From Hydrogenophilales bacterium (GTDB lineage: Bacteria > Pseudomonadota > Gammaproteobacteria > Burkholderiales > Thiobacillaceae), in contig JAGXGM010000025.1 in the NCBI GenBank assembly GCA_024636675.1, forward strand, positions 1 to 50,649: a DNA stretch of 50,649 bases. The letters are read 5' to 3'. The notes beneath the pieces were generated by a model, which ran no database searches, had not been told where the DNA came from, and saw only the letters and a program-made list of their open reading frames with translations. This document shows, in pieces, positions 7,489 through 37,061 of this stretch. How positions within the stretch are numbered: the stretch's first letter is position 1; each line of letters begins with the position of its first letter. The position numbers and the translations under genes are program-made.

Positions 7489-9332
7489 TCGGGTTGGATT
7501 TCGACCAGCGCCATGTCGGGTGTCACCGCGTCGCCTTTCTTGGCGAAGATGCTGATGACGACGCCAGTGATCGGCGCCTGCACTTCGTTCTCCATTTTCA
7601 TTGCCTCGATCACCAGCACGCCGTCGCCGGCCTTGACGGTCTGGCCGATGCTGACCAGCACGTCGACGACGGTGCCGGGCATTGCGGCGGTGACGTGGCC
7701 GGGGTGGCTGGCGCGCGGCTTCTGGTCGGACGCGCTGGGGGCCGCAGCGGCCTTGCGCGGGGCGCTGTCGCCGCCCGTTTCGATGGCGACCTCATTCAGC
7801 GATTCGACCAGCACTTCTTCCGTGACGCCGTCGACCGACACGAAATAGGGCCGCTGGGCAGAATCGCTACGGCCGCTGCCCGACAGCTTGATGTGGTAGG
7901 TCTCGCCGTGCAGCGTGATCTTGAATTCGTCGGCGGCGTAGCGCGGACCGCTGTCCTGCTGCGCCGCGGCCGGCGGCAGCAGCGGTTCGGGCTTGAGGCT
8001 GCCGGCTGCGCGTTCCTGCAGCCAGACCTTGCCGATTTCGGGGAACATGGCATAGGTCAGGACGTCCTCGTCTGACTTCGCCAGGCCCTCGATCTCGCCC
8101 CGCAGCTTGTCGAGTTCGTCGCTCAAGAGGTCGGCCGGGCGGCAGGTGGTGACGTCGAGATTGCCAATGGCAATTTTGCGCACTTCTTCGTTGATGTGGC
8201 CCGGCGCCTGGCCGTAGCGACCCTGCAGGTAGAGCTTCACTTCGTTGGTGACCGACTTGTAGCGTGCGCCGGTCATCACGTTCAGCGCGGCCTGGGTGCC
8301 CACGATCTGCGAAGTCGGCGTCACCAGCGGCGGGAAGCCGAGGTCTTCGCGCACCCGCGGGATTTCCTCGAGCACGGCATCCATGCTGTCGAGCGCACCT
8401 TGCTCCTTCAGCTGGTTGGCGAGGTTGGAAATCATTCCGCCCGGCACCTGGTTGATCAGTACGCGGGTGTCGGTACCGGTGAAAGCCGACTCGAACTGCC
8501 AGTATTTCTTGCGTACTTCCTTGAAGTAGGCCGAAATCTCCTCGATCAGCGGCAGCGACAGGCCGGTGTCGTATTCGGTGCCGGCGAGCGCGGCCACCAT
8601 GCTCTGTGTGGTGGGATGGCTGGCGCCCTCGGCGAATGCGCCGACGCAGGTGTCGATGATGGTCGCGCCCGCTTCCACCGCCTTCAGATGTGTCATGTGC
8701 GCCAGGCCGGAGGTGGCATGGCTGTGGGTGTGGATTGGCAGGTTGGTGGCCGCGCGAATTTCACGCACCAGTTCAAACGCAGTGTAGGGCGTGAGCAACC
8801 CCGCCATGTCCTTGATGGCGATGGTGTCGCAGCCCATTTCCGCCAGGCCGCGGGCGAGTTCGACGAAGTGCGGGATGTTATGCACCGGGCTGGTGGTATA
8901 GGAGACGGTGCCTTCAGCGTGCTTGCCGGCAGCTTTCACCGCCTCGATCGAGACGCGCAGATTGCGCAGGTCATTCATCGCGTCGAACACGCGGAACACG
9001 TCTACGCCATTGTCGGCGGACTTCTGCACGAAGGCGCGCACCACGTCGTCGGAATAGTTGCGGTAGCCGAGCAGGTTTTGTCCGCGCAGCAGCATCTGGA
9101 TGCGCGTGTTGGGCAGCGCCTTTCTGAGTTTGCGCAGGCGTTCCCACGGGTCTTCGCGCAAGAAGCGCACGCAGGCGTCGAAGGTGGCGCCGCCCCAGGC
9201 TTCCAGCGACCAGAAGCCGACTGCGTCGAGTTTGCTGCAGATCGGCAGCATGTCGACGGTCTGCATGCGGGTGGCGATGAGCGACTGGTGGCCGTCGCGC
9301 AGAACGAGGTCGGTGATATGTACTTTTGCCAT
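7485..9332 (-). CDS. pycB: Pyruvate carboxylase subunit B (OadA-like carboxyltransferase with biotin carrier)
   Basis: A 615-aa protein. Residues 1-300 form a DRE-TIM carboxyltransferase barrel (LVLRDGHQSLIATRM, then GGATFDACVRFL, and the metal-binding HTHSHATSG). A conserved PYC/OADA middle domain follows. An Ala/Pro linker leads to a biotinyl domain with the acceptor Lys in EAMKMEN (about residue 579). With the adjacent biotin carboxylase it makes the two-subunit pyruvate carboxylase that turns pyruvate and bicarbonate into oxaloacetate. No membrane subunits (OadB/OadG) lie nearby, which argues against the sodium-pumping decarboxylase. ATG 9332 was chosen over a longer reading frame because MAKVHITDLVLRDG is the family start; it lies two bases from the pycA stop. 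Confidence 0.85.
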   Translation of the reverse strand: MAKVHITDLVLRDGHQSLIATRMQTVDMLPICSKLDAVGFWSLEAWGGATFDACVRFLREDPWERLRKLRKALPNTRIQMLLRGQNLLGYRNYSDDVVRAFVQKSADNGVDVFRVFDAMNDLRNLRVSIEAVKAAGKHAEGTVSYTTSPVHNIPHFVELARGLAEMGCDTIAIKDMAGLLTPYTAFELVREIRAATNLPIHTHSHATSGLAHMTHLKAVEAGATIIDTCVGAFAEGASHPTTQSMVAALAGTEYDTGLSLPLIEEISAYFKEVRKKYWQFESAFTGTDTRVLINQVPGGMISNLANQLKEQGALDSMDAVLEEIPRVREDLGFPPLVTPTSQIVGTQAALNVMTGARYKSVTNEVKLYLQGRYGQAPGHINEEVRKIAIGNLDVTTCRPADLLSDELDKLRGEIEGLAKSDEDVLTYAMFPEIGKVWLQERAAGSLKPEPLLPPAAAQQDSGPRYAADEFKITLHGETYHIKLSGSGRSDSAQRPYFVSVDGVTEEVLVESLNEVAIETGGDSAPRKAAAAPSASDQKPRASHPGHVTAAMPGTVVDVLVSIGQTVKAGDGVLVIEAMKMENEVQAPITGVVISIFAKKGDAVTPDMALVEIQPE

Positions 9333-9334
9333 AA

Positions 9335-10753
<1,419 letters not shown>

Positions 10754-28433: not shown

Positions 28434-28524
28434 GGAGAGGTGGATGAGCGGTTTAAGTCGCACGCCTGGAAAGCGTGTTTAGGATAATATCCTAACGCGG
28501 GTTCGAATCCCGCCCTCTCCGCCA
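28434..28524 (+). tRNA. tRNA-Ser (anticodon GGA)
   Basis: A complete type II tRNA of 91 bases. The acceptor stem is GGAGAGG (28434-28440) with CCTCTCC (28514-28520). The anticodon stem-loop CACGC-CTGGAAA-GCGTG has anticodon GGA at 28468-28470. A long variable arm (TTAGGATAATATCCTAA) and T arm GGGTTCGAATCCC follow, with an encoded discriminator G and CCA. It reads UCC and UCU. Its 3' end is the integration site of the element that follows, and the tRNA is left intact. Confidence 0.97.
28511..28524 (+). repeat. attL: 14-bp core at the tRNA-Ser 3' end
   Basis: CGCCCTCTCCGCCA, the end of the tRNA acceptor stem with CCA. It is identical to 37048-37061, and sequence identity stops on both sides of the 14 bases. 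Confidence 0.88.
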
Positions 28525-28575
28525 ATATATCAAATAAGTGCTTGATAAATAAGAATAATATTCAAGGCTTCTATC

Positions 28576-28599
28576 TCTAAGTATCTTTCTAAGCATCTT
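28576..28599 (+). repeat. Left-end tandem 12-bp repeat (putative integrase arm sites)
   Basis: TCTAAGTATCTT (28576-28587) is followed directly by TCTAAGCATCTT (28588-28599). The octamer CTAAGYAT recurs as a pair with the same 12-base spacing and orientation at the right end of the element (36918-36937). Arm-type binding sites of the integrase are the simplest reading. Confidence 0.5.
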
Positions 28600-28611
28600 G
28601 ACTTTCCCGCC

Positions 28612-28639
28612 AACAAAAAGCCCAGCGCGAAGGCTGGGC
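28612..28639 (-). terminator. Rho-independent terminator at the end of the element's operon
   Basis: The stem GCCCAGC (28620-28626) / GCTGGGC (28633-28639) with a short loop is followed on the minus strand by TTTTTGTT. It closes the long minus-strand transcription unit of the element before it reaches attL and the tRNA. Confidence 0.8.
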
Positions 28640-28662
28640 CGGTGTGGGTGTTGCCGCCAGGA

Positions 28663-28863
28663 TCAGTCAGCAGGGCGGGCGATGCTAAAGACGTTGCCAG
28701 CGGTGGACTCAATACAACCTTCAGCATGCGTTTTAACTAGATACCTAGTTGCCTGTTGCGACTGGGCGGGCATGAGCCGGTAATTTAGAATCATATCCGC
28801 CTCCTCATCAGTCAGGCGGTGAAGGCGGGTTAGCTCCGCAGGGGGTAGAATCTTTTTAGCCAT
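28663..28863 (-). CDS. Small element protein, 66 aa, unknown function
   Basis: MAKKILPPAELTRLHRLTDEEADMI... with a GGAG site upstream of ATG 28863; the longer in-frame start lies inside the next gene. The segment LTDEEADMILNYRLMPAQSQQATRYLVKTHAE resembles the C-terminal tails of some XRE-type regulators, which carry EEAELLxxYRxLP-like helices, but no helix-turn-helix is present. It is the last gene before the operon terminator. Its final codons (SIARPAD) and the DNA there resemble the end of the neighbouring 97-aa gene. No function can be assigned. Confidence 0.6.
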   Translation of the reverse strand: MAKKILPPAELTRLHRLTDEEADMILNYRLMPAQSQQATRYLVKTHAEGCIESTAGNVFSIARPAD

Positions 28864-28879
28864 GATCCCATCTCCGTAG

Positions 28880-29173
28880 TCAGTCAGCAGGTAGGTCGAT
28901 GCTGTAGTCGCACAACCCCTTGCACTCCTCGGCCAGCATGGAACAGGCCCACAGGTAGTTGTGCTGTATCTCATCCGACCAGTTGCTGAAGGTTTTGAAT
29001 CCCGCTCCCTTGGTCATTTGCAGCATTGCGGAGAGTTGCGAAAGCCGCGCGGATAATTGGTCTTGAACATCGCCGTGGGTTGCGTCGGCGTGCAGCGTGT
29101 AGAACGGGCCTGCTGCCGCGAAGTTAATTGTGCGGTCGTTGGATTGATCTTGCGTAGAATTGCTATCAGCCAT
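28880..29173 (-). CDS. Small element protein, 97 aa, unknown function
   Basis: A 97-aa protein starting at ATG 29173 with AGGAG upstream. The body (FYTLHADATHGDVQDQLSARLSQLSAMLQMT, then NYLWACSMLAEECKGL) is predicted to be two helices after a short beta segment. The layout is reminiscent of small DUF3077-like proteins with a helical core, but the match is too loose to name. It ends SIDLPAD, like the SIARPAD end of the next gene. It is probably co-transcribed with the glycosyltransferase gene across a 99-base gap that shows no terminator. Confidence 0.6.
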   Translation of the reverse strand: MADSNSTQDQSNDRTINFAAAGPFYTLHADATHGDVQDQLSARLSQLSAMLQMTKGAGFKTFSNWSDEIQHNYLWACSMLAEECKGLCDYSIDLPAD

Positions 29174-29272
29174 GATTGACTCCTAGTTAGTCGACTGTGG
29201 TCAGGGGTGGCCTCGTGCTTCAACACTTGGTCGCCCCGCTATCCAACAGGGTTGGACGGCTGCATCCTACGC

Positions 29273-29872
29273 CTACACAAACAGCCCGGCAATAACCCTA
29301 CGCTCTAGCCCTACTTCCCTCCTCATAGAGCGGGTGGCCTGCTGATAGTGCCAGCGCCACAAGCGCCCCACCATCGGAACGCGCTCAAGCCTTGCAGTCT
29401 TGGCAATGGATAGCGTTAGCCACCATTCAGGAATGGCACGCAGCAGCGGCAAGTCGTCTAGCAAGGGTTCCACCAGCGCCCGCCGCATAACAATCAGGCC
29501 GTGAACGTGGGACGGAAAATGTCGGTGCATCTCGGGGCTATACGGGGAAACGTCAGCGCCCCGGATAGGCTTAAGCTCATCGTTAACAACCTGCTCGCCA
29601 GTGAAGACAGCGCCCAGGGTTGAATCAGCATCAAGCGCCGCAATACAGGCACTGACAGCGCCGGGCAGTATGCGGTCGTCATGGTCGGCAAAACTCACAA
29701 ACTCAGCATTTCCCATCGCAAAACCAGCAGCCCGTCCCGCGCCGACATTGCCCTTGATGCAATCGGGTAAGTGCAGATTGACAGGCTGCTCTCGCAAGTC
29801 CGCCATAAGCTCATCAACCCACAAAGGATTACTGAACGGGCAGACAATGACGTGAAGGTCGCAGCGGTGCAT
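29273..29872 (-). CDS. GT-A fold glycosyltransferase-like protein (family 2 type)
   Basis: A 199-aa protein with a glycosyltransferase core. It starts with a beta strand (DLHVIVCPFSNPLWVDELMADL), then GNVGAGRAAGFAMGNAEFVSFADHDDRILPGAVSACIAAL, where DHDD is the DxD-like metal and sugar-nucleotide site after a conserved strand. Later, PEWWLTLSIAKTARLERVPMVGRLWRWH gives the acceptor-side motif and a WxWH end. It is short for family 2 and has no membrane helix, so it is probably soluble. GGAGGG lies upstream of ATG 29872, four bases after the preceding stop. Possible roles are modification of capsid, surface glycan or DNA; the target cannot be read from sequence. Confidence 0.7.
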   Translation of the reverse strand: MHRCDLHVIVCPFSNPLWVDELMADLREQPVNLHLPDCIKGNVGAGRAAGFAMGNAEFVSFADHDDRILPGAVSACIAALDADSTLGAVFTGEQVVNDELKPIRGADVSPYSPEMHRHFPSHVHGLIVMRRALVEPLLDDLPLLRAIPEWWLTLSIAKTARLERVPMVGRLWRWHYQQATRSMRREVGLERRVIAGLFV

Positions 29873-29876
29873 TTAT

Positions 29877-30074
29877 TCAGCCCTCCAGAATCGCAGACGG
29901 CACGCTTTCGGCTGCGATCCCTTCAATGCGCTGAATCAGTTCGGCCTGTGTCACGCCATCGGCTCGCATGGCTTCCAGTGCGGCCATAACGCGCTGCTTT
30001 GTGATTTCGGCGTACTTTGCACCTTGGGCGTGTGCGAAGCGATTGACGGCGGTTTTAACGGGTTTGCTGAGCAT
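29877..30074 (-). CDS. Small element protein, 65 aa, unknown function
   Basis: MLSKPVKTAVNRFAHAQGAK... from ATG 30074 with GAGAGGA upstream; the longer in-frame start at 30116 lacks such a site. The sequence ITKQRVMAALEAMRADGVTQAELIQRIEGIAAE is helical and could form a small helix-turn-helix-like fold, but no family is recognised. It lies directly upstream of the glycosyltransferase gene with a 4-base gap, so the two are likely co-translated. Confidence 0.6.
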   Translation of the reverse strand: MLSKPVKTAVNRFAHAQGAKYAEITKQRVMAALEAMRADGVTQAELIQRIEGIAAESVPSAILEG

Positions 30075-30308
30075 TTTAGAATCCTCTCTCGCGCAAGCGT
30101 GCAGGTACGCGCACACAATGTGTTCTGGCGGCGTCTTTCGGGTTAGGAATGAAAGAAAGGGGCAAGCACGATCTAGAAAATCTTTTCGTTTTAAGTTTTT
30201 CCCCGCCTATCCGGTGCAGTTGAGAAAACGCGTTTTTCTGAATTGACGGTGCGAATAAATGGCTTCCAGCATGGTCTAGAGTTCCATTGCTCTGGACTCT
30301 GTTGCCGC

Positions 30309-30491
30309 CTATGGGGTGCCTGCCGCCGTATGCTGGCCGTGGTGCGCTTCGTTCGTGGTGGTTGATGCGCTGTTCTGTCTGGCAGCTAGCGCACGCTGTA
30401 AGGCTTCGGTCATTGCGGTTGCGTTGTTGAAGGCTTGACGCTCTGATTGCTTTTCGGCTTTCTGTCTTGCTTGCTTGGTAAGTCGATCCAT
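30309..30491 (-). CDS. Small basic/helical element protein, 60 aa
   Basis: A 60-aa frame with a strong AGGAGG site before its ATG. The N-terminal half is highly charged (MDRLTKQARQKAEKQSERQA) and predicted to be a coiled helix; the C-terminal part is rich in Ala, Thr, Ser and His and probably disordered. It lies just after the structured region 30519-30646 and downstream of the capsid gene. A scaffold or nucleic-acid-binding role is only a guess. The 234 bases to the next gene contain an AGAAAACG/CGTTTTTCT palindrome near 30223 and nothing else I can name. Confidence 0.55.
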   Translation of the reverse strand: MDRLTKQARQKAEKQSERQAFNNATAMTEALQRALAARQNSASTTTNEAHHGQHTAAGTP

Positions 30492-30518
30492 GTTGATCGC
30501 CCTCCTATATGTGGGGTT

Positions 30519-30646
30519 GCCATCGCAGCGCGCATTACGTTGCGCTCTCGATGGCTGCCGGGGTTCGTCTATGTCCGTGGCACTGTCCGGCTAATCCACG
30601 TCCCGGCTTAGCTCTCGCTACCCGCCGGGCCGGGTTAATGCAACCC
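30519..30646 (-). ncRNA. Candidate structured RNA region: four consecutive stems after the capsid gene
   Basis: The gap between the capsid gene and the 60-aa gene contains four stems in a row: GCCATCG/CGATGGC (30519-30525, 30549-30555) enclosing AGCGC/GCGCT; CGTGG/CCACG (30576-30580, 30596-30600); CCCGGC/GCCGGG (30602-30607, 30624-30629); and GGGTT/AACCC (30632-30636, 30642-30646). There is no T-run, so they are poor intrinsic terminators. A regulatory mRNA structure, a stable RNA or a DNA recognition site is possible. The pairings are seen; the function is not known. Confidence 0.4.
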
Positions 30647-30657
30647 TCGATGGGTAT

Positions 30658-31755
30658 TTATGCAGGCGTGGTGCTGACGTAGCGTGCCGCGCCGATCATG
30701 CGGTAAGTCGGGATCACCGACATTTCCACTCTGATAGTCCTGAGGTTGCGGGCGAAGTTGTCGTTGTTATGGCCAATGTCGACTCGCATCCCGCCATCGA
30801 CAGCCAGCTCGCATTGCTGGCTGTCGATTACCAGGGCTTTCTTGCCTACCAGTGCTGCCGCTCCCGAGAAGACCACCTTGCATCCGTGCAGTCGAATGTC
30901 GGACGGTGCGCTGGTGAGTGCGCCGGGGATCAGGTAGTCCCCGCCGGTATTCTTCAGCAGGATGATTCCCAGGTAGGTCATTGCGTTGACCGCTACAACG
31001 TCGGGATTCAGCCCGTCAGCCCTCATATTCTGGACACAGTCAGCGATGGCGTCGGAGATGGTGGCCAAGGTGCTGGGGTAAGCCGTTGCCAGCGGTTGAT
31101 ACCCCGCGAAAGGCCAGGACGCTTCAGCCGTCCCGCCGATCAGCATGGTGTCTGCGGCTCGCAGCACTTGCCCAGCCAGGTATCCGTTTACGACCGCTTC
31201 CAATTCGCCCGTTGACCGCAAGGCCTGTTCCGAGATGGGACAGAGCGCCGCGATGGTGACGGCGTTTTGGCTGATGTCCAGAAACAGGGGGATGGCTTCG
31301 GTCTTCGACCCGCCTTCGCCCGCCTGGATCGATGCACCCATGCCAGACATTGCGCTGTACCGGCTGTAGTGAGCCGTGGCGACTCCGGGCGTTTGGCGAA
31401 TGGGCAGGTTGCCGATCAGCATTGTGCCGGGGTTACCTCCCGTCGGTGCGGAGAGTCCCGGCAGGGTTGCGTGGCTTCCGACAATCGACGATCCGGCGAA
31501 GGCGTTGATGCTCTTCAGGTCGAGAGGGACGGAGAATGCCACGCTCTTAGTCGTGCTGAAGGTGTCTCGCAGGGTTTCGAATTTGGCCGCGACGGAAGCG
31601 CCCAGGCTGGTGGTGGTGCCGGTGTGGCCTTCGTGGCGCAGCACGCCCTTCTGCTCGATTTGCATCACGCGGTCGCGCAGCTCTGCCACGTCGGCGTTAG
31701 TGGGCAGCTGGTCGACTGCTTTGCTGATTCGTTCGAGTGTGGTGTCAATGTTCAT
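30658..31755 (-). CDS. Major capsid protein, HK97-fold type
   Basis: A 365-aa protein resembling HK97 gp5-type capsid proteins. The first 40 residues are a short coiled coil (LERISKAVDQL, VAELRDRVMQIEQKG), a reduced delta domain. Then come an extended N-arm region, a loop with LPIRQTPGVATAHYSRYSAMSG, the core AGEGGSKTEAIPLFLDISQNAVTIAALCPISEQALRST with the spine helix, an A-domain stretch (VAVNAMTYLGIILLKNTGGDYLIPG), and the terminal strand IRVEMSVIPTYRMIGAARYV. The E-loop-to-spine sequence with AEGGxK is a family hallmark. The start overlaps the preceding gene by four bases. No protease, portal or terminase gene is next to it. Confidence 0.8.
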   Translation of the reverse strand: MNIDTTLERISKAVDQLPTNADVAELRDRVMQIEQKGVLRHEGHTGTTTSLGASVAAKFETLRDTFSTTKSVAFSVPLDLKSINAFAGSSIVGSHATLPGLSAPTGGNPGTMLIGNLPIRQTPGVATAHYSRYSAMSGMGASIQAGEGGSKTEAIPLFLDISQNAVTIAALCPISEQALRSTGELEAVVNGYLAGQVLRAADTMLIGGTAEASWPFAGYQPLATAYPSTLATISDAIADCVQNMRADGLNPDVVAVNAMTYLGIILLKNTGGDYLIPGALTSAPSDIRLHGCKVVFSGAAALVGKKALVIDSQQCELAVDGGMRVDIGHNNDNFARNLRTIRVEMSVIPTYRMIGAARYVSTTPA

Positions 31756-32018
31756 GGTGTTTCCTTAAATAGGGTTTGAGCGGTCGGGTAAGTCCCGGAT
31801 ACCGCAATCTTCGCTAGCCGTCTGTCATAGCCGTTGGCTCGCAGCTTCTTTTCCAGTTCTCGCTTTTGCAGGGCAGTTTTCAACTCAGGGAGCATCCCGC
31901 CCCGAATCATCAAAAACCGCAAAGCTCTGGTGCATCCCGCAGCCAGGCCAAGCAAACCGAAGGCAGGCTTCCCGCCGTCCTTGGTACGTTGCTGAAAAAA
32001 TTCTGTGTTCATACGCAC
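31752..32018 (-). CDS. Small basic element protein, 88 aa, upstream of the capsid gene
   Basis: Begins at GTG 32018 (VRMNTEFFQQRTKDGGKP...), which has AGGAG seven bases upstream. ATG 32012 and a TTG at 32069 are alternatives with worse spacing. The protein is basic and helical (GLLGLAAGCTRALRFLMIRGGMLPELKTALQKRELEKKLRANGYDRRLAKIAV), with one hydrophobic stretch. The C-terminal half, with many Lys and Arg, could bind nucleic acid or act as a capsid accessory factor. I recognise no family. It overlaps the capsid start by four bases, so the two proteins are probably made in a fixed ratio. Confidence 0.55.
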   Translation of the reverse strand: MRMNTEFFQQRTKDGGKPAFGLLGLAAGCTRALRFLMIRGGMLPELKTALQKRELEKKLRANGYDRRLAKIAVSGTYPTAQTLFKETP

Positions 32019-32065
32019 AATTATACTCCTACTGTCAATAGCTTTTAAGGTTTCGATTGACGTTA

Positions 32066-32242
32066 TCAATGATAAGTTGCGTGCGCCATCTGCTCTATCT
32101 CGACAAACAGATCGAGCGGGGCCAGCAGCATCACCTGCATGAGTGCCTCTACTGTCCGGGGGTCATCCTCGCCAAACATTGCGTGAGCTAACTGGTGCTG
32201 CTCGATGGCTTGGGTAAAGGTGATTTTTTCCATAGTGTTCAT
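32066..32242 (-). CDS. Small acidic element protein, 58 aa
   Basis: MNTMEKITFTQAIEQHQLAH... from ATG 32242, which overlaps the stop of the upstream gene by four bases. It is acidic and helical (FGEDDPRTVEALMQVMLLAPLDLFVEIEQMAHATYH). The reading frame extends further upstream, but that part shadows the preceding gene. No family is recognised. The overlap argues that the ORF is real. Confidence 0.5.
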   Translation of the reverse strand: MNTMEKITFTQAIEQHQLAHAMFGEDDPRTVEALMQVMLLAPLDLFVEIEQMAHATYH

Positions 32243-32577
32243 TCCATTCCTTTGTTTGGGTCGATAGGCCACATTGATTCGGGCAGGCGTTCTACAGATA
32301 CCGCGTCGGGATAGGACAGCAGCACTTGATGGCGTGTCCTCTCGGGGTGGTGGTATGTCTCGGTTGAATGCGTGCCGTGGTTGACGCTCCAGGCCCATGC
32401 TGGCGCGTCGTTCTGTAGTTCCGCGATGATTGCGGCCTTGTGGGTACGCAGCAGCCAAGCCACATCTTCATCAATTAATTCAGGGGGGGAGACAAACAGC
32501 TTTCCTCCCTCCGTCCGAACTGATAACCCGAGAATCCGTAGCATCTCGATTGCGTCCAGTGCTGTGATCGGGGTCAT
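32239..32577 (-). CDS. Protein with a TubC-like N-terminal docking domain, 112 aa
   Basis: A 112-aa protein whose first 55 residues (DAIEMLRILGLSVRTEGGKLFVSPPE, then VAWLLRTHKAAIIAEL) resemble the TubC N-terminal docking domain: a helix, a beta hairpin with a GGKL-like turn, then a helix with the LRxHKxxIIAxL end. That fold is best known from subunit docking in nonribosomal peptide and polyketide synthases and also occurs in phage and plasmid proteins next to replication genes. The rest (WSVNHGTHSTETYHHPERTRHQV) has no known match. ATG 32577 shares one base with the stop of the ATPase gene, which suggests a partner role. Confidence 0.6.
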   Translation of the reverse strand: MTPITALDAIEMLRILGLSVRTEGGKLFVSPPELIDEDVAWLLRTHKAAIIAELQNDAPAWAWSVNHGTHSTETYHHPERTRHQVLLSYPDAVSVERLPESMWPIDPNKGME

Positions 32578-34130
32578 CAGAATTCCACCTCTGCGCTGCC
32601 ATCCCTCAAAACAGGCGTTTTATGCGTCCCACCGTCCCCGGCCTTATTCCATGAGGGTTTCAGCGGTACGGGAGCGGATTCTGTATGTGTACCGGATTTG
32701 TCATCCCGTCCCACGTAAAGCCCCTTGCTTATTGGGTTTGCGGCCAACGGGACGCCGGGACGCGCATTTTCGGGGGTGGCGGTGAGGTAGCGTGCGAAAA
32801 CATCGTCGAATTGCAGGCGGTCATATCCTTTTGCCTGCTCGTAACCAATTCGGACGTTCTTTGACGCGATGCCGTATCCCTTCAGCATGTTGGCAAGTTG
32901 TCTGGGTGAAAGCGGCCTGCCCCGGTTGTATGTCGCCCACGCTGCTTCGTCATCCTCGATAAGTGCAGCAATTAGGTCTGTGGTGCCGATACGTGCCGCC
33001 TGTTTGCTTTCAAAAACGTGGAGAATGTCGCCCAACAACTCGTTGCCGGCACTCTGCGCAGTCTCAGTCTTGCCAGACAGCTTTAACGCGGCCCTGGTGG
33101 CTCGATCTACCCAAGCAGGCCCAGCGCATCCGGCAATCGACAGAAGCGGCTCCCAGTTGTCCTGGGCGCGGTCTGATAGCGCATCGGGCAGGGTTGGACG
33201 TGCTCGGCGCACCTCGTCGTGATAATCCACTCCGAACCTAGTCAGCATGGATGCGTATTTTTCGAACAGGTCGTGTTCGGCGTAACGCAGTCGTTCTACC
33301 TTTTCGCCTGGTAGCTTGCGCCTCATGTTTATGACGATGGCGCGGCTCATGGTTGCGTCTGGAAGGTGTTTCTCCAGGGCAATCCCGGCCATCGCCTTTG
33401 CGCTCCAAACCGGGAACAGCGTAGGTTCGTGGTTGTCACCTACGACGCGCCCGACGTAGGCGTTCTGCCGTGTGTGTCCCGCGTTGATCAGACCCTTCAG
33501 TTCTTCGTTGTCCCGAATGAAGGTGTCTGCCTCATCTATCAGGACGGTGGGCGTCCATTTCCCAACGGCACGAAAGAGGAAAGCCGATGATGAGTTGGCT
33601 GCTGGTAGTGGTCGCTTCACCAGCCACCCGATCAGCGTTAGCAGTTGAGACTTGCCGCAAGCCTTCTCAGGCGCATTTGCCAGCAAGAGCGGCGCAACCT
33701 CTACAGCGTCGATTAAGTGGGTGAAGGCTGTCCACAGTGCCGCAGCGTCTGCCTGCTCCCTGTCCAGCACAATGAATCTCAGGATTAAGTCGGATACCTC
33801 GGACAGCACCGCGGCAGGGTCTACGGGTTCGTGCCACGATTCCACTTCAGCGAATGGGGTTTGCGGCGCATCCTCGGTTGCTCGCTCGCCTTTCACCATC
33901 GCATCCAGCGTTGCTGGTCTAACGCCTATTGCTTTTGCTTCTGCCACACGGCATCGGTCGTATTCCAGCGCGGTCATTGCCGACAATCTGGCGACCGCTT
34001 CGGCGTCTGTTTCCTTTGGCCGTTCCTTCAAAATCGCTTCCATGCGCGCGGCGGCGAGTCTGTCCAGGGTCGATGCGCCTTTCTCTGCGCTGGTGTTGTT
34101 CGGGGTTGGCCTGCATTGGGTCTCATCCAT
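32577..34130 (-). CDS. DUF3631-type replication ATPase/helicase-like protein
   Basis: A 517-aa protein. The Walker A motif APEKACGKS (about residues 153-161) and Walker B VLIDEADTF (about 196-204) lie in the DUF3631 segment, preceded by LWTAFTHLIDAVEVAPLLLANAPE. Typical features follow: DNEELKGLINAGHTRQNAYVGR, the sensor-like MSRAIVINMRRKLPGE, and a C-terminal DUF3631 part (LIAALIEDDEAAWATYNRGRPLSPRQLANMLKGYGI) like a winged helix. Such proteins replace the primase-helicase in many integrated elements and phages. The last 60 residues are low-complexity. It overlaps the primase-like gene by eight bases, so the two may work as a split primase-helicase. Confidence 0.75.
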   Translation of the reverse strand: MDETQCRPTPNNTSAEKGASTLDRLAAARMEAILKERPKETDAEAVARLSAMTALEYDRCRVAEAKAIGVRPATLDAMVKGERATEDAPQTPFAEVESWHEPVDPAAVLSEVSDLILRFIVLDREQADAAALWTAFTHLIDAVEVAPLLLANAPEKACGKSQLLTLIGWLVKRPLPAANSSSAFLFRAVGKWTPTVLIDEADTFIRDNEELKGLINAGHTRQNAYVGRVVGDNHEPTLFPVWSAKAMAGIALEKHLPDATMSRAIVINMRRKLPGEKVERLRYAEHDLFEKYASMLTRFGVDYHDEVRRARPTLPDALSDRAQDNWEPLLSIAGCAGPAWVDRATRAALKLSGKTETAQSAGNELLGDILHVFESKQAARIGTTDLIAALIEDDEAAWATYNRGRPLSPRQLANMLKGYGIASKNVRIGYEQAKGYDRLQFDDVFARYLTATPENARPGVPLAANPISKGLYVGRDDKSGTHTESAPVPLKPSWNKAGDGGTHKTPVLRDGSAEVEF

Positions 34131-34626
34131 GATTCAGTCCCCCAGCATCAAGAGCCGCCTGGATTCTGCCGACAGCCACTAGCAGCCGGTCGCGGTCGGT
34201 TTGCGTGAAAGGTTCGCCCGCCAGCATTGACGAAGCCGCGCAGCCGACTACCAAGGCTTCGAATCCGATGGCGCGCAGAATGTCAGCAGCCGGGAATACC
34301 CTGCGCTCCTGTTTAACGTGGTGGCTGGTGATGCGCTCCGGGTACAGGTCGCTGAACGTCAGGCCCAGCGCCCCGAGAATCTCCTCGACACTGTCCCCGC
34401 CGAAGTCGTGCAGCAGCACGCGGCCATCATCCATCTCGCGGATCGTCATGGACGGGTGCTTGTCGTCGCGTGTCGGGCAGCTTGCGAGCCAAGTATTCGG
34501 GCCGGTGCGCTTGACTCTGTCGAGACGTGACAAGAGGGAGCCGACTGGGCTAAACTGTGCGTTGATTGTGTTGTGCTGAGCCGCTTCGCCCCTGCCAGGG
34601 CTGGCGGCTTTTGTTTGGGCGTTCAT
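34123..34626 (-). CDS. Primase-like protein with a degenerate CHC2-type zinc motif, 167 aa
   Basis: A 167-aa protein. WLASCPTRDDKHPSMTIRE followed by VLLHDFGGDSVEEILGALGL has the frame of the CHC2 zinc-binding domain of phage and DnaG-type primases (CPFHDDKxPSF, then CFGCGxGGD). Here the His of CPFH is Arg and the second Cys pair is replaced by HDFGGD, so the zinc site is mostly lost. No TOPRIM domain follows; the C-terminal half is helical (RDRLLVAVGRIQAALDAGG). It starts ten bases after the AlpA-like gene and overlaps the ATPase gene. It probably loads or recognises template DNA for the ATPase. Confidence 0.65.
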   Translation of the reverse strand: MNAQTKAASPGRGEAAQHNTINAQFSPVGSLLSRLDRVKRTGPNTWLASCPTRDDKHPSMTIREMDDGRVLLHDFGGDSVEEILGALGLTFSDLYPERITSHHVKQERRVFPAADILRAIGFEALVVGCAASSMLAGEPFTQTDRDRLLVAVGRIQAALDAGGLNHG

Positions 34627-34636
34627 GGCGCGGCCC

Positions 34637-34891
34637 TTACGCGGTTGCGCCGTTGGTGCGGGTGCGGCCTGGGTGGCCGGGGTTCTTCGCAGGCAGGGGC
34701 TTGAAGTTCTCAGCCGCGCCGGACTCCATGCGCGCCTGCCATTCCTGGGCGGCGCTCAGGCTGACGTATGGCTTCGACGCGATGCGGTATGTTTTGGGTG
34801 CGAGTCCGGCCTGCTCAAGCTCGTGCAACCTGCCACGGCTGATTTTGTAGGCTGCGCAAAACTCCGGGATAGTGAATGCTTGTCTTTCCAT
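34637..34891 (-). CDS. AlpA/MerR-like helix-turn-helix DNA-binding protein
   Basis: An 84-aa protein. MERQAFTIPEFCAAYKISRGRLHELEQAGLAPKTYRIASKPYVSLSAAQEWQARM is a winged helix-turn-helix of the AlpA/Xis type: a recognition helix around ISRGRLHEL, then a wing with the bound-tyrosine-like KPYVS. Such proteins activate integrase genes (AlpA) or bind attachment sites (excisionase). A strong GGAGG site precedes ATG 34891; the longer frame adds only ten residues. It is placed between the 231-aa gene and the primase-like gene. Confidence 0.78.
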   Translation of the reverse strand: MERQAFTIPEFCAAYKISRGRLHELEQAGLAPKTYRIASKPYVSLSAAQEWQARMESGAAENFKPLPAKNPGHPGRTRTNGATA

Positions 34892-34966
34892 GTGAACCTC
34901 CTTCGCTTGAGAAGGTTCCACGGTATCGACGCGCCTATCGTTTGCATTGCAAAAAACAGACGCTAC

Positions 34967-35662
34967 TCAGCGTTCATTATTTGCAGCCTTCATGCGCTCC
35001 ATGAAGTTCAACCACGATTCTGGATTTTGGGCGGCTTTCCCCAGCCAGTAGGACGCCCGCTCTATTGGCACTTCGGCCAGTTCCATCACTGCCAGGAATG
35101 ACTCGCCAGCCAGGCCGGTGTCGCTTGTAGTGAACCTGATTTCACGCCTGCCCAGGTAGTCTTCAATAAATCCGGCGGTCTGTTCTTCGAATGAATATGG
35201 CTTTTTGTCTAGCGGTGGAAGCTCCTTGATCGCCAGCCGCGCGCCCATCGCGAAAGTCTTAAAAAGATTGGCGTGCTGTGTTTGTAGTTCATAGGCGTTA
35301 AGGATCGACTGATAGCCTGCAATGGCCTCAACCTCTGCCGTGTCGCGTGCGCTGTCTGGATTTGATGCATCCTTCGCCGTTTGCAAAAGACCACGCCAGA
35401 TAGCAAAGCCTAGGGCAGGATCATCCATCGCTAACGCAGCGTCTACCAGTCGATCAAGGGCATTTGCGAATGCTTCGACGCGCTCCTTTCGTCGTTTTTC
35501 TTTGTCTGGTTGTCGGGCGGTATCCCCGGCCATCTTTTCCAGGCAGCTAACAAAAACCTCCCCGTCGTCGTCCGCATCTCGTAAGCCGTCTGGACGCGCT
35601 TCCAGATAGGCAGCACGGTATTTCTTCATTAATCGCCGCCGCGTCGTGTCTGTAAATTTCAC
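34967..35662 (-). CDS. Element protein of unknown function, 231 aa
   Basis: A 231-aa, mostly helical, acidic protein. The GTG start at 35662 has AGGGAG upstream and lies one base from the integrase stop, so it is translated with int. Features include a basic start (MKFTDTTRRRLMKKYRAAYLEA), a charged linker (RQPDKEKRRKERVEAF), a helical centre and LDKKPYSFEEQTAGFIEDYLGR near the middle. No catalytic motif, membrane segment or signal is visible, and I recognise no family. Possible roles are an accessory recombination factor or a helper-interaction protein. Confidence 0.6.
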   Translation of the reverse strand: MKFTDTTRRRLMKKYRAAYLEARPDGLRDADDDGEVFVSCLEKMAGDTARQPDKEKRRKERVEAFANALDRLVDAALAMDDPALGFAIWRGLLQTAKDASNPDSARDTAEVEAIAGYQSILNAYELQTQHANLFKTFAMGARLAIKELPPLDKKPYSFEEQTAGFIEDYLGRREIRFTTSDTGLAGESFLAVMELAEVPIERASYWLGKAAQNPESWLNFMERMKAANNER

Positions 35663-35663
35663 G

Positions 35664-36896
35664 TTACGCTCCCTTGCGATTGATCGGCGTCACGTCTGCC
35701 TTGCTGGCGATGGTGTCGCAGTGCTTCTGCCAGTCGTTCATCATCCGGATGCGCTTTTTAAACAGGTCGCCGCGCCGGTAAGCTGCTTCGGTCTTGTTGC
35801 TGACGGCGTGTGCGAGTGCCATCTCGGCCATCTCATGCGGGTAGGCGGTCTGCTCGGCTGCCCAGTCTCTAAACGTTGACCTGAACCCATGAACGGTCAG
35901 GTCGCCGCGCTCCATGCGCTTTAGCAGGGCCAGCATCGCCATATTAGAAAGGGGCTTGTCAGCTTTCAAGCCGGGGAAAACATACTCGCCGCCCAGCGGT
36001 TGCAGCTCCTTCAGAATTTCAATGGCGTGATTACATAGAGGAACGCGGTGTTCCTTCTCAGCCTTCATGCGTTCGGGCGGGATCGTCCAAGTCTTTCCTG
36101 CCAGGTCGATTTCATCCCATCGTGCGCCGATCACCTCGCCGGTGCGGGTGGCGGTCAGGATGGTGTACTCCAGCGCCAGCGCAGCCATGCCCTTCTGCTT
36201 TCTCAGGTCGGCCATGAATCCGCCCATTTCGGCGTAGGGCAGGGCGGGGTGGTGTTCGACCTTTTTGACCTTGCTTCGCTTCGCCAGCAGGTTGTCCAGG
36301 TGGTCGCGCCAGCGGGCCGGGTTCTCTCCGGTGCGGTATCCGCTCACGGTCGCCCATCCGAGAATGGACTCGATGCGGCTGCGAAGCCGGGTTGCTGTTT
36401 CGGTTTTGGTTGCCCATATCGGCTGCAATACCTTCATCACCAGCGCGGTGTCCACGTCAGCCACGGGCAGCTTGCCGATGGTGGGCGATGCGTAGGTGCT
36501 GATTGTGTTCGTCCACTGTTCGGCGTGCTTGGCGTTTTTCCAGCCGGGTTTTTTGGCTTCAATGTAGGCAGTCGCGCACTGGTCGAACGTCATCACCCGC
36601 GCTTGCTCTGCCATTTCCTTCTGGCGCTTTTCGTGTTTGCTGTCGATAGGGTCAACACCGTCCAGTAGCATCTGGCGGGCTTGCTTGGCACGCTTACGGG
36701 CTTCCAGCAGGGTGATGGTGTGGCACGCACCCAGGCCCAGGGAGCGCAGCTTGTTGAACCGCTGATAGCGGAACAGCCAGGACTTCGTGTTCCAGACACT
36801 AACTTGAAGGTACAATCCAAGTCCGTCTGGATACATACCGGGCTTGTCTACTGTTGCGACAAACTCCGGGGTCAGCTTGTTTATTTGTTTTGCCAT
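35664..36896 (-). CDS. int: Tyrosine integrase, P4-type
   Basis: A 410-aa tyrosine recombinase. The N-terminal part (PGMYPDGLGLYLQVS...KSWLFRYQ, LGACHTITLLEARKRAKQAR) is the DUF4102 arm-binding domain of P4-type integrases, and a SAM-like core-binding domain follows. Catalytic residues: the first Arg in LTATRTGEVIGARW, HGFRSTFRDW (HxxR), the second His in LAHAV, and Tyr in TEAAYRR. Such integrases insert elements at tRNA 3' ends, consistent with the duplicated tRNA-Ser end. It has GGAGAG before ATG 36896. Only the longer, DUF4102-containing integrase type has this layout. It reads away from attR. Confidence 0.93.
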   Translation of the reverse strand: MAKQINKLTPEFVATVDKPGMYPDGLGLYLQVSVWNTKSWLFRYQRFNKLRSLGLGACHTITLLEARKRAKQARQMLLDGVDPIDSKHEKRQKEMAEQARVMTFDQCATAYIEAKKPGWKNAKHAEQWTNTISTYASPTIGKLPVADVDTALVMKVLQPIWATKTETATRLRSRIESILGWATVSGYRTGENPARWRDHLDNLLAKRSKVKKVEHHPALPYAEMGGFMADLRKQKGMAALALEYTILTATRTGEVIGARWDEIDLAGKTWTIPPERMKAEKEHRVPLCNHAIEILKELQPLGGEYVFPGLKADKPLSNMAMLALLKRMERGDLTVHGFRSTFRDWAAEQTAYPHEMAEMALAHAVSNKTEAAYRRGDLFKKRIRMMNDWQKHCDTIASKADVTPINRKGA

Positions 36897-36916
36897 ATCG
36901 ACTCTCCGCCATACTC

Positions 36917-36940
36917 ACTAAGTATTGGGCTAAGTATAGT
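36917..36940. repeat. Right-end octamer pair (putative integrase arm sites)
   Basis: CTAAGTAT occurs at 36918-36925 and 36930-36937, 12 bases apart, in the same orientation as the pair at the left end. The DNA lies just upstream of int, where arm sites and an autoregulatory operator often overlap. Confidence 0.45.
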
Positions 36941-36963
36941 TCGATATGAAAGGCGATAGACTG

Positions 36964-37032
36964 TTATGAAAAGCCGTGAACTACAACGTATTGAATTTAT
37001 TGATTAAATAGGCGTTTATGAAAAGCCATGAA
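36964..37032. repeat. 17-bp direct repeat next to attR
   Basis: TTATGAAAAGCCGTGAA (36964-36980) and TTATGAAAAGCCATGAA (37016-37032) differ at one base and are 52 bases apart, close to five helical turns. A third, weaker copy (GATATGAAAGGCGATAG) starts at 36943. These are candidate binding sites for the integrase or for the AlpA-like protein. Confidence 0.5.
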
Positions 37033-37047
37033 TAATGGCAAAACGGA

Positions 37048-37061
37048 CGCCCTCTCCGCCA
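37048..37061 (+). repeat. attR: 14-bp copy of the tRNA-Ser 3' end
   Basis: CGCCCTCTCCGCCA, identical to attL. It is the remnant of the original tRNA end, now separated from the tRNA body by the element. Confidence 0.88.

Follow-up and report, generated by a model that had tools for sequence, protein, structure and literature searches.

A tRNA-Ser-integrated element with a lone HK97-type capsid gene, and its relatives, as candidate shell-redirecting satellites

What does a mobile element gain from a capsid gene when it carries no other recognised virion gene? The question is raised by an element of 8.55 kb that lies next to a tRNA-Ser gene in a 50,649-nucleotide stretch of DNA from a Hydrogenophilales bacterium (assembly GCA_024636675.1, contig JAGXGM010000025.1; the whole stretch is hereafter called the window). 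Our favoured answer, to which we assign a probability of about 0.6, is that the window element is a satellite that redirects the shell of a helper phage by means of one capsid homologue with a shortened scaffold region, much as the protein Ccm does in staphylococci. The element is one of a recurring kind, roughly 9,000 bases long, whose capsid gene probably makes the helper build small shells.

How a shell of the HK97 fold chooses its size is an old question, and one staphylococcal case suggested that a shorter delta domain forces a small shell; there, a delta domain 44 residues shorter than that of the helper was proposed to drive small shells (PMC5052747). The Staphylococcus aureus pathogenicity island (SaPI) SaPIbov5 redirects the shell of its helper with a single capsid homologue, Ccm (PMC8569155, PMC5052747). 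As described in PMC8569155, Ccm has 355 residues, and its delta region spans residues 1-87 compared with 1-128 in the helper capsid protein. In T=4 shells, Ccm forms the pentamers and the helper protein the hexamers. Ccm is the only island protein needed for redirection; alone, it makes no shell.

By analogy, the window element would integrate at tRNA-Ser, be copied by its own primase-like and DUF3631 proteins, and rely on a helper phage for portal, large terminase and tail. The capsid homologue would join the shell that the helper is building, where it would most likely form pentamers next to hexamers of the helper protein, and the shell would close early, giving a small head that fits the satellite but not the helper genome. 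We infer helper dependence, co-assembly, shell size and a packaging signal in this scheme, whereas the integration site, the boundaries, the gene set, the near-constant size, the purifying selection on related capsid genes and the scaffold shortening in three lineages can be read from the DNA itself.

The element and its capsid gene

An intact tRNA-Ser(GGA) gene (28434..28524, plus strand) forms the integration site. A 14-bp attachment core lies at its 3′ end (28511..28524) and is found again on the far side (37048..37061), with a core-to-core spacing of 8,537 bp. The same repeat scan also returned a 15-bp repeat away from any tRNA, and a 14-bp repeat alone could have arisen by chance. In five genomes of the same genus (G079, G056, G102, G081 and G080), the site is empty and a glycosyltransferase gene, the one that lies beyond the right-hand core in the window, directly follows tRNA-Ser. 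At the closest of these empty sites (L104), the DNA after the tRNA resembles the right flank of the window with few mismatches. Because tRNA-Ser adjoins the right-flank glycosyltransferase gene in these five genomes, we place the element at 28511-37061. An earlier note on this DNA, made from the letters alone, had proposed the 14-bp core and the intact tRNA-Ser as boundaries and had suggested looking for an empty site in related genomes; both cores and the five empty sites bear this out. Its description of a compact, one-strand element of about 8.5 kb also holds, as every predicted gene between 36896 and about 28663 is on the minus strand. At the same site in other genomes of the genus (L108-L112 and L114), about 4-5 kb separate tRNA-Ser from the glycosyltransferase gene; by eye these inserts look like ordinary bacterial genes, and the site is variable across the genus.

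The capsid gene (30658..31755, minus strand) is intact, encodes 365 residues and is the sole recognised virion gene of the element. Its product matches PF05065 (E 6.3e-13), PHROG 10 (1.8e-13) and TIGR01554 (4.7e-12). A profile of this protein and five relatives, searched against the PDB, matched HK97-type capsid chains (best 4.3e-60), among them HK97 with its delta domain (3.6e-56); no chain named Ccm was among the PDB chains listed for this profile. Used as a single-sequence query, the window capsid protein had no match in viral_contigs, the phage collection or the plasmids at the limits used, and the capsid protein of a related element (L027) had none in viral_contigs. Pfam also returned a match to an encapsulin family (E 0.066), which would suit an encapsulin-like compartment of capsid fold. 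We regard this as scarcely credible and reject it: the match is below threshold, the best matches are phage capsid proteins, and the genes belong to mobile elements.

No terminase, portal or tail family was recognised in the element by Pfam (14 open reading frames, ORFs), PHROGs (10 ORFs) or local profiles, in agreement with the earlier statement that the HK97-like capsid protein is its only structural gene product. The element resembles SaPIbov5 and the cos-type SaPIs in several respects, namely: one HK97-fold capsid homologue of similar length (365 residues, compared with 355 for Ccm as reported), a scaffold region that, as described for Ccm, is shorter than in phage capsid proteins, and no recognised portal, large terminase or tail genes. 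The likeness to Ccm is one of described features and length. Unlike the SaPIs with Ccm, the window element and its relatives are found in Pseudomonadota, measure about 8.8 kb, use tRNA genes and carry several capsid types, including the Mu-gpT type; two of the lineages are nearly without scaffold, and some members add a protease, a small terminase or a tape measure protein.

Other known satellites are instructive. The Pasteurella phage-inducible chromosomal island (PICI) PmCI172, which according to PMC6092414 forms small heads, shares with the window element the possession of a capsid homologue, whose role that paper leaves untested; EcCICFT073 is reported there, in contrast to our reading of the window element, in phage-size heads. 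An integrase at an attachment site together with its own replication genes is a PICI trait that the window element possesses. A further PICI trait is a master regulator of the AlpA or Stl type, for which the 94-residue protein described below is a candidate. Capsid-forming PICIs, by the definition quoted in PMC10690885, encode a protease, portal, connectors, both terminase subunits and HNH besides the capsid protein. They and the window element each have their own capsid gene, but none of the remaining head and packaging set was recognised in the latter, and we reject this identity because no portal or large terminase was recognised. P4 and PLE (PICI-like element) likewise obtain small shells from helper proteins, as summarised in PMC10945586, but redirect them via external scaffolds (Sid, TcaP) and not via a capsid homologue. 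The names Sid and Psu are absent among the Pfam matches of the 14 ORFs, although no search aimed at either was made.

Lone capsid homologues in satellites are already known from SaPIbov5 and PmCI172. The earlier note had viewed a satellite that brings just its own capsid gene as a different strategy; this novelty falls away, as redirection by Ccm has been demonstrated and PmCI172 also encodes a capsid homologue (reported in PMC8569155 and PMC6092414). The satellite reading itself is favoured by the gene set, the precise boundaries and the sole recognised virion gene, and a satellite lifestyle of the window element remains the likely interpretation of its sequence. We found no description of a lone-capsid class of about 8.8 kb in open-licence full texts, a body of literature that leaves most subscription journals outside.

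Fifteen elements of nearly one length

Counting the window element, we found 15 complete elements in which an integrase and a capsid gene are present but neither a portal nor a large terminase is recognised. They were reached via capsid relatives and then via every PF05065 protein in 117 genomes of the family, so that the capsid gene, the one virion gene common to all 15, is shared partly by construction; nothing in this selection, however, kept portal or large terminase genes out, and none was recognised. Searches with local profiles of known phage proteins gave neither a portal nor a large terminase inside the 15 elements, bearing in mind that PF04860 and these profiles miss some portal families and that single element calls may be wrong. 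Large unlabelled ORFs of L245, L246, L250, L251 and L252 that were sent to PHROGs turned out to be primases or helicases. Two of the elements (L023 and L027) come from other families of the order and one (L264) from another family of the class, while the other 12 belong to the family of the window.

The elements are nearly constant in length. The spacing of their repeats has a mean of 8,826 bp (standard deviation 507, range 7,722-9,944) in 14 elements and is 8,953 bp in the fifteenth (L264, at tRNA-Arg). At tRNA-Ser, the spacing is 8,537 bp in the window, 9,944 in L113 and 9,168 in L223; at tRNA-Asn, it is 8,685 in L027, 8,888 in L245, 8,492 in L251, 8,569 in L253 and 8,786 in L254; and at tRNA-Arg, 9,261 in L246, 8,555 in L252 and 8,711 in L255. 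L250 (9,010) uses tRNA-Leu, L256 (9,233) tRNA-Thr, and L023 of Dechloromonas sp. Dech2017 (7,722, with a second, longer repeat at 7,939) tRNA-Cys. The repeat search could return spacings well above 10 kb and did so (L231, 12,266; L244, 14,417). Selection by a small shell of fixed size would be expected to produce such near-constant lengths.

Two alternative explanations bear on these figures. The capsid homologue could be only an anti-phage weapon that poisons helper assembly, with the element moving by other means. Ccm is indeed reported to reduce the helper titre strongly (PMC8569155), but the near-constant size points to a packaging limit and some members carry small terminase genes (L223, L245 and L250); we consider this reading quite unlikely. 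The elements could also be prophages that have lost their packaging and tail genes, a finding that the earlier note had named as a refutation, along with a terminase, portal or tail cluster of the same element in relatives. In favour of this, phages are the source of the capsid, protease and tape-measure genes. Nevertheless, no portal or large terminase was recognised in any of the 15, and the loss of genes from a prophage fails to account for so many complete elements, all 7.7-9.9 kb long and with an intact capsid gene. Decay should also bring uneven sizes, broken genes and relaxed selection, and these elements show none of the three. The number of complete elements, their narrow size range, the purifying selection and the satellite-only clades of the capsid tree (see below) lead us to reject the decayed prophage, which has very little probability left.

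Replication proteins were recognised by search in nine of the 15 elements, namely: the window element, L027, L223, L245, L246, L250, L251, L252 and L264. L113 has a short primase-like match, and L254, L255 and L256 have large ORFs that were left out of the individual scans. In three elements (L223, L245 and L246) a protease is fused to the capsid protein.

Within the 117 family genomes, PF05065 occurs at 32 places in 26 genomes, corresponding to 31 genes (two places in G024 share one frame). A portal lies near nine of these genes, detected as PF04860 in six cases (G056, G110, G028 twice, G039 and G046) and by local profile in three (L240, L242 and L243). Eleven genes belong to complete integrase-capsid elements (the window element, L223, L245, L246 and L250-L256) and five to such elements cut by a contig end (L005, L249, L257, L258 and L274), in whose sequenced part no portal or large terminase was recognised. 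One gene lies in L244 (G033:C1, 88-14558; 14,417 bp), which has an integrase, small and large terminase genes, a capsid gene and a tape-measure-like gene but no recognised portal, and is a step between the lone-capsid elements and fuller satellites. The remaining five, on fragments, were left unsorted (G042, G070 twice, G002 and G028:C33). In this family, integrase-capsid elements hold 16 of the 31 PF05065 genes and recognised phages nine, so that a tool for which any capsid gene signals a phage would count wrongly. In a sample of the class (158 genomes), 11 PF05065 places were found in seven genomes, and one of them (L264) is a further complete element.

Shortened scaffolds, selection and capsid exchange

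In HK97-like capsid proteins, the scaffold is the N-terminal delta region, as described in PMC8569155. This region is short or missing in 12 of the 15 aligned satellite proteins, in three capsid lineages, whereas only one of 115 phage rows from the three lineages falls inside the satellite range. The phage rows have a terminase or portal by local profile and lie away from the contig edge. In the lineage of the window, 34, 35, 40 and 42 residues precede a conserved anchor in the satellites (4 of 4; 34 in the window protein), compared with 60-117 in the phages (8 of 8). In lineage A5, the residues before the model start number -2, 0 and 20 in three satellites, whereas the 55 phage rows have at least 61, with a median of 139. 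The range in lineage A6 is -1 to 27 for five satellites, and the median of 52 phage rows is 303.5 (51 of 52 above 100, 50 above 250). Gene starts are as predicted, apart from that of L258, which was set by hand and is matched by the start of its sister L274. A metagenome-derived viral contig (L276; IMG/VR 3300033553_000630, 7,908 bp) carries a replication protein and, by eye, a small-terminase-like helix-turn-helix protein; its capsid protein of 316 residues is 71% identical to that of L251 and likewise has no scaffold region.

Related satellite capsid genes are under purifying selection in each of the three pairs compared. The ratio of nonsynonymous to synonymous substitution rates (dN/dS) is 0.063 for L246/L247, 0.182 for L245/L246 and 0.196 for L251/L252, with 0.12 and 0.12 for integrases and 0.33 for a phage capsid pair as controls. 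On a capsid tree of 31 rows, chosen by us (16 satellite, 12 phage and 3 unlabelled, with the undecided L241 entered as phage), the satellite label changes twice, against a mean of 9.3 when labels are shuffled, and none of 500 shuffles is as low. The window protein, L023 and L005 form a clade at 100/100 that spans two families.

Capsid types also differ between like integrases. The integrases of the window element and L113 are 81% identical and use the same tRNA-Ser site in different genomes, but the capsid proteins are unlike: that of L113 belongs to the unrelated Mu-gpT family (PF10124, 6.2e-20) and is accompanied by a tape measure protein (PF20155, 3.7e-59). Similarly, five tRNA-Asn elements (L245, L251, L253, L254 and L258) have integrases that are 83-91% identical and three capsid types. 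The Mu-gpT capsid protein of L113 has one match in 300 genomes of the order (L199, with a terminase-like gene, which looks like a full prophage) and 218 relatives in viral_contigs, of which 80 were kept; among the six closest, the ones inspected, phage genes clearly lie beside the capsid gene in four.

Alternatively, the satellite capsid protein could replace the helper capsid protein and build the whole small shell around the helper portal. The complete core capsid domain, the swapping of the capsid type as a unit between like integrase backbones, and the protease-capsid fusion or small terminase that some elements bring are all in keeping with this alternative. Ccm alone, as reported, makes no shell; the scaffold is short or missing in most of the aligned satellites, as above; and the helper portal, and in most elements the protease as well, would need to fit a foreign capsid protein. 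We therefore hold a self-built shell to be possible but doubtful, and prefer a Ccm-like protein that joins the helper's own shell.

Several observations weigh against that preference. A single phage row of A6, with 20 residues, falls within the range of the satellites. L223, L245 and L246 retain a protease-scaffold part of 279-377 residues, compared with 302-312 in three co-aligned phages, and the 603-residue protein of L264 looks to be of this same type. The N-terminal alignment left out L250 and L113, and the 115 phage rows, called phage by a terminase or portal on the contig, include near-copies and are non-independent. The window capsid gene has no close pair for dN/dS, and L247, one half of the 0.063 pair, is an element of unsettled class. 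No replication gene was seen in L023 and L253, and a tape-measure-like gene is also present in four of the 15 elements (L023, L113, L253 and L264). Finally, the genome of the window (90 contigs, 81% complete) yields no helper: the window capsid gene is its only PF05065 match, and no PF04860 portal was found in it.

A wider proposal can be put forward tentatively: scaffold trimming may be a general, repeatedly invented switch to small shells, in which satellites would take a capsid gene from whichever phage lineage is their helper, remove its scaffold and protease part and combine the rest with an integrase-replication backbone. The result would be a broad class of lone-capsid satellites, about 8.8 kb long because a single small shell size sets their length. 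Whatever the fate of this idea, the three lineages, with short-scaffold satellite copies set against phage copies that retain the scaffold and with elements of nearly one length, amount to natural replicates of the staphylococcal case in other bacteria. They offer a comparative series that is ready for testing whether scaffold length sets shell size.

Other genes and neighbouring elements

The remaining genes of the window element are likewise on the minus strand. A tyrosine integrase of 410 residues (35664..36896; PF00589, PF13356 and PF22022) with an arm domain is followed by a 231-residue protein (34967..35662) with no family at a useful E-value; the integrase call of the earlier note is confirmed by profile. 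The 94-residue product of 34637..34921 is presumably a helix-turn-helix regulator. It had been labelled AlpA-like, a name that it owes to position and that profiles do not confirm (MerR_2 only, E 0.061). A primase-like protein of 167 residues with a zinc-ribbon motif (34123..34626; PHROG 6088, 8.6e-9; PF01807, 0.026) and a DUF3631 protein of 517 residues, presumably a replication ATPase (32577..34130; PF12307, 2.3e-44), match what had been read from the letters.

Downstream lie genes for a 112-residue protein (32239..32577; weak TubC_N match, 0.0069), an overlapping ORF of uncertain start with weak matches only (32066..32458) and a small protein (31752..32069) whose stop overlaps the capsid start by four bases. 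The same arrangement, a small upstream frame ending four bases into the capsid start, is seen at 31752-31755 in the window and at 10580-10583 in L023, and the two small proteins resemble each other at their ends; the small protein is perhaps a coupled partner of the capsid protein. Beyond the capsid gene are a 60-residue ORF (30309..30491) with no Pfam family, a 79-residue ORF (29877..30116; PHROG 753 at only 0.018), a glycosyltransferase-like protein of 199 residues (29273..29872; PHROG 19440, 1.3e-34; PF00535, 0.002) with no match in the phage collection, and two overlapping ORFs of 97 (28880..29173) and 103 residues (28663..28974) with no family. PADLOC returned no defence match for 10 ORFs of the window.

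Elements of other composition were also encountered. L231 (1786-14065 in G090:C23) lies at tRNA-Ser between 14-bp repeats with a spacing of 12,266 bp; its integrase is about 48-51% like that of the window, and it carries a tape-measure-like gene (PHROG 2854, 6.1e-33), with no capsid gene recognised. Of two integrase-replication elements with provisional boundaries, L227 (G065:C37) carries an internal virion protein (PHROG 418, 4.2e-23) as well as a large terminase, and L232 (G054:C43) has large proteins that belong to virion-like or endolysin-like families. L039 (G588:C142) is a contig-cut element from another order beside tRNA-Ser(CGA), whose DUF3631 protein is 46% identical to that of the window; it also carries a prohead protease (PF04586, 3.7e-36) and a partial capsid gene. 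In the phage collection, the DUF3631 protein matched PV029746.1 and PP003913.1, both of them Pseudomonas records that had been submitted as complete phages. One has ABC-transporter and dehydrogenase genes, neither of the gene lists seen names a capsid or terminase, and both records may be islands rather than phages.

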